A stretch of DNA of 64,000 nt from Vibrio ponticus (GTDB lineage: Bacteria; Pseudomonadota; Gammaproteobacteria; Enterobacterales; Vibrionaceae), in contig NZ_AP019657.1 of NCBI RefSeq assembly GCF_009938225.1, positions 1,178,001 to 1,242,000 on the forward strand, read 5' to 3'. The notes under the pieces were generated by a model. That model was not told where the DNA came from and made no database searches. It saw only the letters and a program-made list of their open reading frames with translations. A program made the translations under genes and the position numbers. Of this stretch, positions 6,108 to 11,588 are shown piece by piece (the stretch's first letter is position 1; each line of letters begins with the position of its first letter).

Positions 6108-7031
6108 ATGGCAAAAGCATTTGATATCATTGGTGCTCCGTTTAATTTGTTGGGCTGCAGACCCACAAAACAAAATACCGTTAATGGTCTGCGCCATAAT
6201 GATGAGAATGGCGACGTTGGGCTAAGTGAATGGATCGAAGTTCGCAATGCTCGATGGGGAGCGGATGTAGTCGATCGCGGTGATATTGCGCTTACTCCAA
6301 CTATCGCTGATTTGATTGCAACCAACAAACAAGCGCAAGGGCTGAGTGGCTATACAGAGCAGCTGAAGCAGCAGGTATTGGCGAGTTACGATAAGGGACG
6401 AATCCCAATTACCATTGGTGGCGACCACTCCATCGCAGTGGGGTCCGTGCAAGCGGCTCTAGATCATTATCAGATGCATCAAGGTAAGCGTGTAGCGCTA
6501 ATTTGGATTGATGCCCATGCAGATTGCAATGACTCAAATGTGGGTAATTTACACGGCAAGCCGGTCACTATGCTGATGGGCAAATCTTATGAAAAGTTGG
6601 AGTGTCGCGAACCTAAGGCTCTTCTAAAATCAAATGATCTTTACTATGTCGCGGTGCGTGATTTGATGCCCAATGAAGATGCGATAATTAAACAGCACTC
6701 GATCATCAACTATGACATGGCGGCTATCGAAAGCCACGGCATCAACCATGTGTTAAGTCAACTGCTCAAAACCATCGACAGTGACTACGATTATTTTTAT
6801 GTCTCTTTTGACTATGACGCACTCGATGGCAGTATCTTCCGCGCCTGCGGCACGCCGAATGTAGGCGGATTAAGCGCGAGAGAGGCGATTCATCTGATAT
6901 ACGGTTTGGCAAACCATGACAAGTTTGTCGGTATTGATTTTGTCGAGTACATGCCAGAATTAGATGAGCAGGGCATATCTAAACAGTTAATGCTTAAATT
7001 GATTGATGCGGTGTGGGGATACCGCGCTTAG
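6108..7031 (+). CDS. Arginase-family (ureohydrolase) enzyme
   Basis: 307 residues, the normal ureohydrolase length. The three binuclear-manganese motifs are present: GGDHS, DAHAD and SFDYDALD, supplying the His and Asp ligands. The family hydrolyses guanidino compounds (arginine, agmatine, formiminoglutamate, proclavaminate) to urea or formamide plus an amine. After the third motif the sequence reads GSIFRACGTPNVGG instead of the usual DP-x-x-APGTGTP, so substrate choice among the family members is open. No hut or speA/B genes flank it. The ATG at 6108 is preceded by TTAGGGAG, a good ribosome-binding site. A strong terminator follows. Confidence 0.85.
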   Translation: MAKAFDIIGAPFNLLGCRPTKQNTVNGLRHNDENGDVGLSEWIEVRNARWGADVVDRGDIALTPTIADLIATNKQAQGLSGYTEQLKQQVLASYDKGRIPITIGGDHSIAVGSVQAALDHYQMHQGKRVALIWIDAHADCNDSNVGNLHGKPVTMLMGKSYEKLECREPKALLKSNDLYYVAVRDLMPNEDAIIKQHSIINYDMAAIESHGINHVLSQLLKTIDSDYDYFYVSFDYDALDGSIFRACGTPNVGGLSAREAIHLIYGLANHDKFVGIDFVEYMPELDEQGISKQLMLKLIDAVWGYRA

Positions 7032-7042
7032 CGATAAAACGA

Positions 7043-7068
7043 AAAAAGGATGGTAAACCATCCTTTTT
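7043..7068 (+). terminator. Rho-independent terminator after the arginase-family gene
   Basis: AAAAAGGATGG pairs perfectly with CCATCCTTTTT around a TAAA loop and ends in five T. It is symmetric, so it can also stop transcription coming from the glutaredoxin side. Confidence 0.9.
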
Positions 7069-7088
7069 ACTGTGTTCTGTAGTGGCAA

Positions 7089-7220
7089 TTAATTGCTCTT
7101 ATACATCTTCTCAAAGTTAGCCGCATTCCAGCCAATCATATAGCGATCGCCAATTTTCAATACCGGCAGAGAACGTGCACCAATCGCATCCAGTTCTTTG
7201 CGACCATGTTGCATTTTACT
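7089..7220 (-). pseudogene. Truncated second copy of the glutaredoxin 3' half
   Basis: On the minus strand this stretch encodes KMQHGRKELDAIGARSLPVL and then the same C-terminus as the intact glutaredoxin gene at 8738-8965, ending EKMYKSN in place of EKMYKA. By my hand alignment, 116 bases (7102-7217 against 8748-8863) differ at about ten positions, mostly third codon positions. The N-terminal half with the CPHC active site is absent, and homology ends close to 7217. It has no start codon and cannot make a working enzyme. Its position next to the arginase terminator suggests it is the original 3' end of the gene, displaced by the insertion of the intervening DNA. Confidence 0.85.
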
Positions 7221-7221
7221 T

Positions 7222-7258
7222 AAAGCCAGTCGGAGTACTACGTTTCGTTGGCTTTTTT
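7222..7258 (+). terminator. Terminator-like hairpin at the left end of the island
   Basis: AAAGCCA and TGGCTTT pair across a loop of about 20 bases and are followed by a T run on the plus strand. A second, mismatched terminator-like stem follows at about 7268-7302 (AAGAGACTT / AAGTGTCTT, then T6). No gene on the plus strand precedes them now. Confidence 0.5.
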
Positions 7259-7601
7259 ATCGTGCTTTAAGAGACTTATTACAAATCGTAAAGTGTCTTT
7301 TTTAATAGTTATCTAATAAACATATTATAAAACGTACATTTATAAAGATGGCTCAAATAATGAGCCACTGGTAATCTTGTGTGTTGAACATGCTTAAAGA
7401 CACTATATATAGTATTTAGTGACGTATATCTGCTAATTTAATCGATCTTATTGCGGCGCAGATCGATAAGCCCTTATCTGATAAGCCTTGTCAAAAAATC
7501 AAGTTTAATAACAGAAAAAATGCAACTTTCATTGTTTTCTTTGTATCTGGGAGCAGTGCCAACAAGATCGTTTCCATATTGTACTGCAACTGAATTTTAA
7601 T

Positions 7602-7615
7602 GATCTAGATCAATA
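7602..7615. promoter_or_regulatory. FNR/CRP-like dyad
   Basis: TGATCTAGATCA with flanking A/T resembles the FNR half-site pair (TTGAT-N4-ATCAA with one mismatch) and the core of CRP sites. It lies in the non-coding island with no nearby gene start, so the function is uncertain. Confidence 0.3.
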
Positions 7616-7840
7616 CTTTTGGGGTGTGCTTTAGAGTTTAATACGTCTGTCTACTAAATCACCATAATACTAAATCTAGTGATTTTTTATTAATTTAATG
7701 GGATTTTTGGGTATATCTAGTTTTTTGTGTGATAGATATCTTGATATCAACATATCAAATGCACAATTATATATTTTTGTCAAATAACAAGGTAAAAGGA
7801 TTTCTATCTTGAAACGCAAGAATGTTAACATTCCTGTGTA

Positions 7841-8040
7841 TATCCTATGGATAGCGTGGTGTTATTCAACGAATTTAGTAAATTCTTTGCATAATTCGTT
7901 TTAAGGCTTTATTTCAACTCAAAGTTAATTGAGGTGCAGTTATTTAAACAACCATCAGGCGTCATTACAGGAATTATTTTAAATTACGCAAGATTAAATG
8001 TGATTAAAGTCACGAAACGTGAAAATGTATCCTGTGGATA
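7841..8040. repeat. Pair of identical-pattern dyads TATCC-N3-GGATA
   Basis: TATCCTATGGATA at 7841-7853 and TATCCTGTGGATA at 8028-8040 share the same ten outer bases and are perfect 5+5 inverted repeats 187 bases apart. A half copy, TATCCTGCA, occurs at about 8202. Repetition with conserved arms suggests protein-binding sites. Confidence 0.45.
7999..8014. promoter_or_regulatory. CRP-like site
   Basis: TGTGATTAAAGTCACG matches the CRP consensus TGTGA-N6-TCACA at nine of ten conserved bases. There is no gene start within 400 bases, so it would act on an RNA or on the distant small ORFs. Confidence 0.4.
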
Positions 8041-8206
8041 AGTTGGGTGTTGCGAGAATAATGGGCTTTTATTGAGTTGAATGTAAGTAATTTGCTTGAT
8101 TATTTGTGATTAGAATCAAATAAACGTGGGTATTCCCGTTAAAAGAGGGAAAACTGTCAAAAATAGAGGGGATTACAAGTAATCAAGATGAGAGTAAAAT
8201 ATATCC

Positions 8207-8258
8207 TGCAAATGAAACAAAACCCTCCGAAGGGTTAACTTAGAGGGTTTCATTTGCA
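8207..8258. repeat. Long imperfect palindrome with an alternative internal hairpin
   Basis: The outer arms TGCAAATGAAA and TTTCATTTGCA pair perfectly, continued by CCCTC/GAGGG after a four-base bulge. Inside, AACCCT/AGGGTT around CCGA (8221-8236) forms a competing hairpin that uses the same CCCTC. No T run follows on either strand, so it is not a standard terminator. A further hairpin, GTGTGGATC / GATCCATACAC, follows at 8277-8312. Confidence 0.65.
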
Positions 8259-8368
8259 AAACGAAGGACTAGTTTCGTGTGGATCTCCCCGACCAAAGTT
8301 TGATCCATACACCAGAAAGACTTCGATATATGTGTAGTCGTAATTTACTAAAATAAACATGTTATCTC

Positions 8369-8384
8369 AGTGATCACTATCACA
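8369..8384. promoter_or_regulatory. CRP-like site upstream of the small ORF pair
   Basis: AGTGATCACTATCACA matches TGTGA-N6-TCACA at nine of ten conserved bases. It lies about 85-100 bases upstream of the ATG at 8470, a distance compatible with class I activation. Confidence 0.45.
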
Positions 8385-8469
8385 GAATAATATGCATGGG
8401 TAAGTGCGTCAACAAGAACTGAACCTTTCGCTAGTCCATTTTCAATAGTCCTATATAGGAGAAAATGGC

Positions 8470-8622
8470 ATGAAATCGATCAGCCATAAACCAGCCCCAA
8501 CCGGCTTTAAATGGGTTTACACACGTTTTCGTCGTGTAAGAAATTCATCAAAGGTACTAGATGCCCACGCATACGGGTGGAAATCTTGGTGTTTTCTAGT
8601 TCGTTGTGCAAGGGGTAAGTAA
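8470..8622 (+). CDS. Small basic protein of unknown function (50 aa), first gene of a tiny operon
   Basis: The ORF is too short for usual ORF callers. It starts at the ATG at 8470, nine bases after a perfect AGGAG, and encodes MKSISHKPAPTGFKWVYTRF, then a run rich in Arg, Trp, Tyr and two Cys, ending CARGK. The regular spacing of aromatic and basic residues, the strong ribosome-binding site, the overlapping next ORF and the terminator argue that it is translated. It recalls small KPAP-GFKWVY-type orphan proteins I associate with Vibrio mobile DNA, but that is memory and not a database result. No function can be assigned. Confidence 0.6.
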   Translation: MKSISHKPAPTGFKWVYTRFRRVRNSSKVLDAHAYGWKSWCFLVRCARGK

Positions 8623-8693
8623 TGATTAGTGTATTTGTTCGTTTAATAAAGTGGTTGATTGAAATTGACCGAGAGTGGTTAATACAAATCTAA
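8622..8693 (+). CDS. Very small ORF (23 aa), amphipathic/hydrophobic peptide, coupled to the 50-aa gene
   Basis: The ATG overlaps the TAA of the preceding gene by one base (TAATG), a typical translational-coupling arrangement. The product reads MISVFVRLIKWLIEIDREWL plus three residues. Helical-wheel reasoning suggests an amphipathic helix with Trp, Lys, Arg and acidic residues on one face, as in small membrane-associated peptides. It could be a membrane peptide or simply a chance ORF. The terminator begins ten bases after its stop. Confidence 0.4.
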   Translation: MISVFVRLIKWLIEIDREWLIQI

Positions 8694-8702
8694 ATGGAAA
8701 AG

Positions 8703-8725
8703 CCCGCACTAGTTGCGGGTTTTTC
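8703..8725 (+). terminator. Bidirectional rho-independent terminator between small ORFs and glutaredoxin
   Basis: CCCGCA and TGCGGG pair around CTAGT and are followed by T5. The opposite side also ends in a short T run, so it can serve both the plus-strand small ORFs and the minus-strand glutaredoxin gene. Confidence 0.85.
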
Positions 8726-8737
8726 ATGCTTGAAGAT

Positions 8738-8965
8738 TTATGCCTTGTACATTTTCTCAAAATTAGAAGCGTTCCAGCCAATCATATAGCGGTCGCCAAT
8801 TTTCAATACCGGCAGTGAACGTGCGCCAATCGCATCGAGTTCTTTGCGACCACGTTGCATTTTTGCGTTGGTTAGACGGTATGGATAACCTTTTGAATCA
8901 AGGTAGCGCTGAGCATCTTTGCAGTGCGGGCACTTATCTTTTACATATAATACGAGTCGTTTCAT
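8738..8965 (-). CDS. Glutaredoxin-family protein
   Basis: 75 residues with the thioredoxin-fold active site CPHC at residues 12-15 (YVKDKCPHCKDAQRYL) and the cis-proline segment ARSLPVLKIGD. Glutaredoxins reduce disulfides or glutathione mixed disulfides in the cytosol. This one is of the short single-domain type. The ATG at 8965 is preferred over a GTG at 8971. Its 3' half is duplicated at 7089-7220, so the present gene may be a junction between resident 5' DNA and incoming 3' DNA. The coding frame is intact. Confidence 0.85.
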   Translation of the reverse strand: MKRLVLYVKDKCPHCKDAQRYLDSKGYPYRLTNAKMQRGRKELDAIGARSLPVLKIGDRYMIGWNASNFEKMYKA

Positions 8966-9097
8966 TGTCACTATTGGCTCTTGGAACGTTAAACTGGCGC
9001 GAGTATAGGCGAATAGGGCACTTTCGACAACGATTCCCGTGAAGCGACGCCTTGATTAAGGTAGACTTAGCGCGATTTTATTATTTGTTGTTCGGTT

Positions 9098-9598
9098 ATG
9101 AATCCAAATCCTGTACTTCGTTATATCCAAGGTTACCCAGAACATATTCTAACTCCCGTTTCACAGATGCTTGAGGCGGGACGTTTTTGCGCGTGGTTTG
9201 AAAAGCGCTACCCACAGCGTCACGAAATTCAAAGTGAAAAAGCGCTGTATGAATACACCATGGCGCTGAAAAACCAGTATATGAGGAAGACTTCGCCACT
9301 GAGCAAGGTGATTTACGATAACAAGATCCATCTGATCAACAATGCGTTGGGGCTGCACACTTACGCTGCCAAAGTGCATGGTGGAAAAATCAAATCGAAG
9401 AATGAAATCCGCATCGCCAGCGTATTTAAACACGCGCCGGAGCCTTTGCTACGCATGCTCGTTGTACACGAATTAGCGCATTTAAAAGAAAAAGATCATA
9501 ACAAAGCTTTTTACCAACTGTGCTGTCATATGGAACCGGACTATCATCAATTAGAGCTGGATGCTCGCCTGTTTATGATTTACCAAGATATTAAGTAA
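9098..9598 (+). CDS. YgjP-like (DUF45) metallopeptidase-fold protein
   Basis: 166 residues. A zinc-binding signature [16 protein letters not shown] lies near residue 125, with the third ligand in the downstream ELDAR helix, matching the YgjP/DUF45 branch of M48-like gluzincins. These proteins are small cytosolic putative zinc hydrolases. Biological substrates are poorly established, and I make no stronger claim. It is followed eight bases later by rlmF, so the two are probably co-transcribed. Confidence 0.8.
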
Positions 9599-10853: not shown

Positions 10854-11588
10854 TTATTGAAACCCGCCGATGTGCGGGTTTATTTTTGCCAGCTTAAGCT
10901 GATAATTCTGCGCGCTTGCGGTATTTCCTGCCTTGATTTCTAATCGAACTAGAGATTGTAGGATCTGAGCTTGAGTGCCAAATTGCTGCTGTGCACTGAT
11001 CAATCGCGTTCTTGCTGGTTCAAAATAGCCATGGGCGATCTCTAATTCAACCAAATGGAACAGTGTTCGGAAGTCATCTGGTTGATAGCTTAAAGAGCGA
11101 CGGAAGTACTCGATCGCAAGCTCAGTATCTCGCCCTTTGAGCGCACAGTAAGCGGCATTGGCGTAACTACTGGCAATATGCGGGTAGGATGGGTTCGCTG
11201 TCGCGCGCACAAAGTATTGATTGGCGCGCTGGTATTGTTGTTGACTGCAAAGGAAGACCGCATAGTCATTTAATACATAGCTGTTGTCGCGATGATAGTA
11301 GAGCGCGGTTTGATAGGTTTGCCGCGCTTTTTCTGGTTCGTTGACTTGCTTAAAGTAATCGGCTTGCGTAAGCAAGGTTCGGTAGTACTTGGGAGCGTGC
11401 TGTAAGGCTTTATCGAGATTTTCTTTAGCTCTGCTGAGGTTGCGCTGTTTGAGATAGCCTTTGGCAAGCTCGATACGCGCATCCGCTTTTTGCTGGTGGG
11501 AAGGCATTGAATCAGTGATAGGCTCGCTGGCACATCCAGCTATTAGCGCTAATGCTAATACGCTTACCGTCACTAATCTTACTTTCAT
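10854..11588 (-). CDS. PilF/PilW-like tetratricopeptide lipoprotein
   Basis: 244 residues with a lipoprotein signal (VSVLALALIAGCAS, lipobox Cys near residue 20) and about five TPR repeats, starting KADARIELAKGYLKQRNLSR and continuing through ALYYHRDNSYVLNDYAVFL. This is the layout of PilF/PilW, the outer-membrane lipoprotein that assists type IV pilus secretin assembly. The usual pilF locus (near rlmN, ispG, hisS) is absent here, so this may be a paralogue with another role. I chose the ATG at 11588 because AGGAGG lies five bases upstream; the GTG at 11594 is too close to it. Confidence 0.75.
   Translation of the reverse strand: MKVRLVTVSVLALALIAGCASEPITDSMPSHQQKADARIELAKGYLKQRNLSRAKENLDKALQHAPKYYRTLLTQADYFKQVNEPEKARQTYQTALYYHRDNSYVLNDYAVFLCSQQQYQRANQYFVRATANPSYPHIASSYANAAYCALKGRDTELAIEYFRRSLSYQPDDFRTLFHLVELEIAHGYFEPARTRLISAQQQFGTQAQILQSLVRLEIKAGNTASAQNYQLKLAKINPHIGGFQ
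10861..10885 (+). terminator. Terminator for rlmF inside the 3' end of the TPR gene
   Basis: AACCCGC and GCGGGTT pair around a six-base loop, followed by TATTTTT on the plus strand. It overlaps the last codons of the convergent TPR gene. Confidence 0.75.

Follow-up and report, generated by a model that had tools for sequence, protein, structure and literature searches.

The question raised by this locus of Vibrio ponticus is how the 3' end of a glutaredoxin gene came to be present twice, in the same orientation, on the two sides of a DNA segment of about 1.5 kb. The DNA analyzed, referred to here as the window, is a stretch of 64,000 nucleotides, and all positions are those of the window unless another genome is named (G, C and L numbers denote genomes, contigs and loci, respectively). 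The two copies form a 120-nt direct repeat (7098-7217 and 8744-8863) with an identity of 91% and a spacing of 1,646 bp, in agreement with a previous reading of the sequence alone, which had placed them about 1.65 kb apart at roughly 91% and had taken them as the trace of an integration that restored the 3' end of the gene. As that reading had it, one copy is intact and the other lacks the 5' half: an ORF of 77 amino acids on the minus strand (Pfam Glutaredoxin, 2.9e-11) ends in the right copy, and the left copy is a fragment of 41 codons. The differences between the copies are mostly silent, as had also been noticed, since 11 of the 39 shared codons differ, nine of them silently and two not (H/R and A/S), and the last residues are unlike, KSN* in one copy and KA* in the other. 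A tRNA gene was considered as the integration target and none is present in the window; the Rfam scan of positions 6900-9200 gave nothing that reached its gathering score. The features of the gene and the repeat, with the evidence for each, are as follows.

8738-8971, minus strand: glutaredoxin gene in its present form, with a native 5' part and a putatively foreign 3' end (ORF, Pfam Glutaredoxin, comparison with G189 and G114)
7089-7217, minus strand: displaced 3' end, the distal part of which appears to be the native end (60 of 60 positions identical to G189 over repeat positions 57-117, KSN* as last residues in common)
8793-8815, minus strand: identical block, right copy, inside which the crossover, if any, must lie (between diagnostic sites 47 and 71)
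7147-7169, minus strand: identical block, left copy (between diagnostic sites 47 and 71)
7218-8737, no strand assigned: element DNA between the two gene ends (absent beside glutaredoxin in G189 and G114; G+C content 34.1%)

The site is empty in two relatives. Genome G189 has one glutaredoxin copy with a GNAT gene adjoining it, and in G114, likewise with a single copy, 56 bp separate the stop codon of glutaredoxin from the arginase gene. Such empty single-copy sites, together with the two gene-end copies that flank the element in the window, one of them part of an intact gene, place the locus in the class of insertions that restore the 3' end of their target. When the 41-amino acid tail was used as query, 213 of 227 Vibrio genomes gave a match, a single one in 211 and two in only two (this genome and G212), so the arrangement is not common to all relatives. 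The whole protein, searched against 296 genomes of the family with a threshold of E <= 1e-7, matched in 247 and gave two matches in three, G000, G151 and G212, and in all three the break lies near AAAATGCA of the gene. The displaced 3' end of G212 (C96:1328-1453) and its gene (C130:73446-73670) are found on separate contigs and the span between them is not visible; the displaced end adjoins a fragment of a tail tape measure gene (phrog_13674, 5.8e-13) and two further ORFs with no PHROGs or Pfam match, that is, different DNA at the same place, which the sequence-only reading had named as a sign to look for. In the same register the two G212 copies do not differ at positions 66-118, which gives an overlap with the identical block of the window of five positions only (66-70), and on these alignments a common core of the two blocks is possible. 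The ends of both G212 contigs (L136 and L137; locus C96:1-1453) were insertion-sequence-like by eye. In G151 (C21, L117) a distance of 26 bp separates the whole gene (87247-87468) from a 5' half (87495-87600) that is displaced and has the same place of break; the native 3' half was not found there, and visual inspection of the ORFs over about 39 kb downstream revealed no integrase. A single glutaredoxin gene is also found in G065, where the gap between arginase and glutaredoxin genes measures 0.94 kb (L070 3695-4635) and holds an endonuclease gene start and a copy of the nrdD promoter; this DNA is perhaps a related element after loss of its left end.

To follow the origin of each half of the gene, both copies were set in register against the native genes of seven relatives, which were selected by us from those fetched. 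G189 is the closest relative by glutaredoxin DNA (95%), and G189 and G065 are the two closest. At repeat sites 10, 26, 38 and 47 both agree with the right copy (R), and at sites 71, 92, 95, 96, 101, 110 and 116 both agree with the left copy (L), so that all 11 diagnostic sites in each of the two genomes fit the pattern RRRRLLLLLLL, which is the one predicted by a single reciprocal crossover in the common 23-bp block. The five more distant relatives show mixed patterns at these sites. Over repeat positions 57-117, where the left copy does not differ from G189, the right copy matches it at 53 of 60 positions and is nearest, among the seven relatives, to G114 (56/60). The 5' part of the live gene is identical to G189 at 92 of 93 positions. 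If the crossover is undone in silico, the resulting gene is identical to G189 at 232 of 237 positions and encodes the same protein, as compared with 218 of 234 for the present gene. These likeness data indicate that the live gene is native up to a point within positions 47-71 and foreign beyond it, and that the left fragment includes the native end; they support the view that the live glutaredoxin gene is a hybrid with a foreign tail, its native end having been displaced. The foreign nature of the right-hand tail is based on seven sites. The crossover probably took place inside the repeat, in the identical block at positions 48-70, and not at the repeat edge, a location that was dropped in favour of the inner block. 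The exchange has the features of a reciprocal one, with the native end displaced and the foreign end in the gene, at every diagnostic site in both closest relatives, the part that concerns the left copy being the weaker: at site 10 the left copy stands alone against the right copy and all seven relatives, so decay of the fragment may account for the foreign look of the proximal part of the left copy at its four sites. Reciprocal recombination of foreign DNA into the 3' half of the glutaredoxin gene is well supported by this comparison, and the switch inside the repeat reveals the foreign 3' end directly, which strengthens the proposal that an integration had restored the end of the gene.

The DNA between the copies has a G+C content of 34.1% as compared with 44.1% for the window, the lowest value among the 1,520-bp stretches sampled in it. 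It has no ORF longer than 51 amino acids, and tblastn with four recombinases found no integrase remnant in it (best E 0.32), which bears out the earlier remark that an integrase is missing between the copies. The features recognized are listed below.

7376-7645, plus strand: copy of the chromosome II endonuclease gene start and nrdD promoter, last letters TAATACG (73.8% identity over 271 bp to the nrdD locus of the same genome; model R1, 92.2 bits, 7521-7645)
7600-7613, plus strand: FNR-box-like site one base off a palindrome, the motif being the one we take to be that of FNR (sequence read directly)
8221-8236, minus strand: terminator-like hairpin (consensus scan)
8273-8314, plus strand: hairpin with the loop motif TCTCCYCGACCAAARTTTGA at 8284-8303 (motif matches and covariation)
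8470-8622, plus strand: 50-amino acid phage protein, phrog_33859 (PHROGs 3.7e-19; 84% to the provirus protein)
8703-8719, minus strand: terminator-like hairpin beside the element-borne gene end (consensus scan)

Of 196 Vibrio genomes, 36 have some match to the element DNA (1,523 bp), in most cases to the promoter segment; in G107, G128 and G144 the matches are limited to 27-41 bp at the terminator. Several pieces in order were found, the locus itself aside, only in G048, and the whole unit occurs elsewhere in none of the 196. The G048 locus (L066) is proviral: it encodes a coat protein of the P2 type (PF18628, 8.8e-47), phrog_2666 as packaging protein and a 354-amino acid integrase; its integrase end adjoins dusA and its other end is a 47-bp repeat of the dusA start with 87% identity. 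The promoter segment, the hairpin block and the small ORF are present in the same order and with similar spacing in the element and at the integrase end of this provirus; in these components the cargo is similar to that end of a tailless provirus of the PM2-like type. For the middle part (7665-8225) homology with the provirus was considered and rejected (score 14, shuffle mean 16.8). The coat protein, which has a match in 65 of 227 Vibrio genomes, has none in this genome, and the target is glutaredoxin and not dusA or dif. The pieces in common point to phage-derived DNA and lend no support to the suggestion of a gene-targeting cassette of a new type.

Two tiny ORFs had been pointed out in the element; the one at 8470-8622 is supported as a gene and no other is. 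It is intact, and its codon changes (19 silent, 8 other) indicate that it is under constraint. Relatives of the small protein were found in 74 viral loci, 134 protein clusters, 4 of 227 Vibrio genomes and 1 of 50,697 phage records. An upstream ORF with a metallopeptidase-type motif is present in 48 of the 74 viral loci, and the three that were tested all match metallo-protease families; four of five downstream ORFs, chosen by us, are integrases by PHROGs. Tyrosine integrases adjoining the small ORF were also sought with a regular expression, which gave 0 of 74 and was discarded as too strict, since PHROGs finds integrases there. It is possible that the small protein is the third gene of a phage immunity module. 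In the listed loci (L082, L084, L085, L280-L353) the small protein follows the metallopeptidase-type ORF by 150-180 nt. In G138 (L086 1402-3449) a member of the family is found beside an integron-type (superintegron) integrase, named by eye, as if it had been captured as a cassette.

Exact matches to the 20-nt hairpin motif occur in 87 viral-contig stretches (L193-L279), and the counterpart of the hairpin in L066 is at 10887-10928. The inner pair was tabulated for 65 distinct contexts, among them the window and L066: T-A occurs in 43, C-G in 20, C-A in 2 and T-G in none. Covariation was scored on 41 of the 42 distinct 42-nt rows (L199, which is at a tRNA end, was left out): 93.9% of the cells pair, and the score is 0.714, as compared with a mean of 0.215 for shuffled rows and at most 0.163 for slid ones. 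The rows were chosen by exact motif, and the invariance of the loop is partly an effect of this selection, which does not apply to the outer stem. In 38 of the 65 contexts the hairpin is followed by a T run, which is absent in the window. Among nine loci, Rfam reported Spy779816 in five (one above the gathering score) and ctRNA_pT181 in three, below it; the predicted hairpin is only partly covered by Spy779816 and is often terminator-like. The motif as letters was not found in the literature searched, and neither was a description of a strongly covarying hairpin common to many viral contigs.

The locus can best be considered an integrated phage-type element, now a defective remnant lacking an integrase, that entered the glutaredoxin gene by one reciprocal crossover, a reading to which we assign a probability of about 0.68. 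A circular phage-type element would have carried some 126 bp of the glutaredoxin 3' end of another lineage as its attachment site and would have recombined with the resident gene in the 23-bp identical block, presumably through a site-specific recombinase. The gene would in this way have acquired a foreign but intact 3' end, and the native 3' end would have been left on the far side of the element. Later loss of the integrase and the core genes would have reduced the element to the regulatory segment, the hairpin and one small phage gene.

An unlikely alternative, although the strongest of the others, is that the element is a complete minimal satellite of about 1.65 kb, excised and inserted by the integrase of another phage acting in trans: both gene ends are present, the small ORF is intact and constrained, the hairpin and promoter segment are retained, and three of the five tyrosine-recombinase matches of this genome, all of which lie outside the window, look non-Xer. 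No recombinase of the genome could be tied to the glutaredoxin site, however, and no phage, plasmid or viral record matched the attachment site or the element (11 phage matches proved to be other glutaredoxins with less than 60% identity). A remnant is likelier because no integrase is in place and the unit does not occur a second time in the genomes searched. In a more elaborate form of mobilization by integrases of other phages, the DNA would be a minimal regulatory cassette, composed of the nrdD promoter without NrdR boxes, the phage hairpin and the 50-amino acid protein, parked in glutaredoxin; we regard this as a doubtful proposition, which if true would tie phage biology to the supply of anaerobic deoxyribonucleotides and thiols.

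Ordinary homologous recombination, in which a single crossover brought in foreign DNA with a glutaredoxin fragment and no site-specific recombinase was required, would result in the same hybrid pattern, and vibrios take up DNA. It is nevertheless improbable, as the longest identical block in the 120-bp, 91% identical repeat is only 23 bp and the gene is broken at the same place in three genomes. A partial gene duplication, with the copies diverging later and an unrelated insertion entering between them, is not excluded by the repeat alone, but it is very improbable because it predicts neither the swap of likeness to relatives in mid-repeat nor the phage-type cargo.

The defective phage-type remnant that we favor has precedents. 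The e14 prophage, 15.2 kb long and with phage genes, is integrated in icd of Escherichia coli according to the passages available from PMC6379469. As is known for e14, the element seems to have entered the 3' portion of a protein-coding gene, which takes its new end from it, and the former end persists as a fragment on the opposite side (163 bp in e14, 129 bp here); unlike e14, the element here measures 1.5 kb, lacks an integrase and has glutaredoxin as its target. Tailless (PM2-like) prophages of Vibrio cyclitrophicus inserted in the 5' end of dusA complement the gene, and dusA or dif are the insertion sites reported for them in the portions of PMC11630473 consulted. The complementation of a disrupted gene by the inserted DNA is common to these prophages and our element, which also has the promoter segment, hairpin block and small ORF in common with the G048 provirus, but the gene and the gene end are others, and the coat protein and integrase of the dusA prophages are both absent here. 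Phage satellites, described in part of PMC13376191 as 7 to 20 kb long with an integrase, likewise consist of DNA related to phages that lacks structural genes and lies between two repeats; the present 1.65 kb has no integrase of its own. The anchored nitrogen-fixation islands of Pseudomonas stutzeri, intergenic between cobS and gshP and beside a glutaredoxin gene, resemble this case in having no integrase and in their place; neither a split gene nor the restoration of a gene end is mentioned in the excerpts of PMC4174501. In the literature searched (titles, abstract starts and passages) no description of integration inside a glutaredoxin gene was found, and the term glutaredoxin is absent from the main text, as available, of PMC11630473, PMC9966536, PMC1950889 and PMC8138268. 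Integration that swaps a gene end is a known kind of event; the glutaredoxin target and the regulatory cargo were not found described. The locus adds glutaredoxin to the protein genes used as landing sites by mobile DNA; the swap of native and foreign ends can be followed at single sites, and it suggests that such integration has moved the C-terminus of a redox protein between Vibrio lineages.

The promoter segment deserves separate consideration. The stretch 7465-7645, at one time taken as an element end, was given up as such when it proved to be the nrdD promoter region of chromosome II, where the gene is identified as NrdD by NCBIfam; the copy ends before the NrdR boxes of the host promoter. 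A sequence-only model, R1, built from 19 nrdD promoters, matched 210 of 227 Vibrio genomes under strict filters. Ten genomes had more than one match, and a second search of these gave clear extra copies in nine (two in G190); the additional matches of G193 are weak, at 22.4 and 18.9 bits. Elements contain or adjoin three of the extra copies, those of the window, G048 and G065. The extra copies end at model position 122-126, and the segment boundary was placed from alignments because some nrdD loci stop at 124-126 too. No NrdR box was seen by eye behind the segment in the window, G048 or G065, the FNR and NrdR motifs used for box calls being those we assume for these regulators. A description of nrdD promoter copies on mobile elements was not found in the literature searched. 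The remaining seven extra copies are intergenic and occupy two kinds of site: five lie between topB and a gene for a nitroreductase (gene families were tested in G005 alone), and the other two adjoin a gene that by eye is TrhO-like. At these sites (L186-L192; G205, G046, G005, G190, G186 and G018) visual reading of the sequence behind the copy gave a box resembling that of NrdR, a ribosome-binding site, an ORF of six codons and a terminator, and the copies are perhaps small RNA or micropeptide genes under the control of FNR and NrdR.
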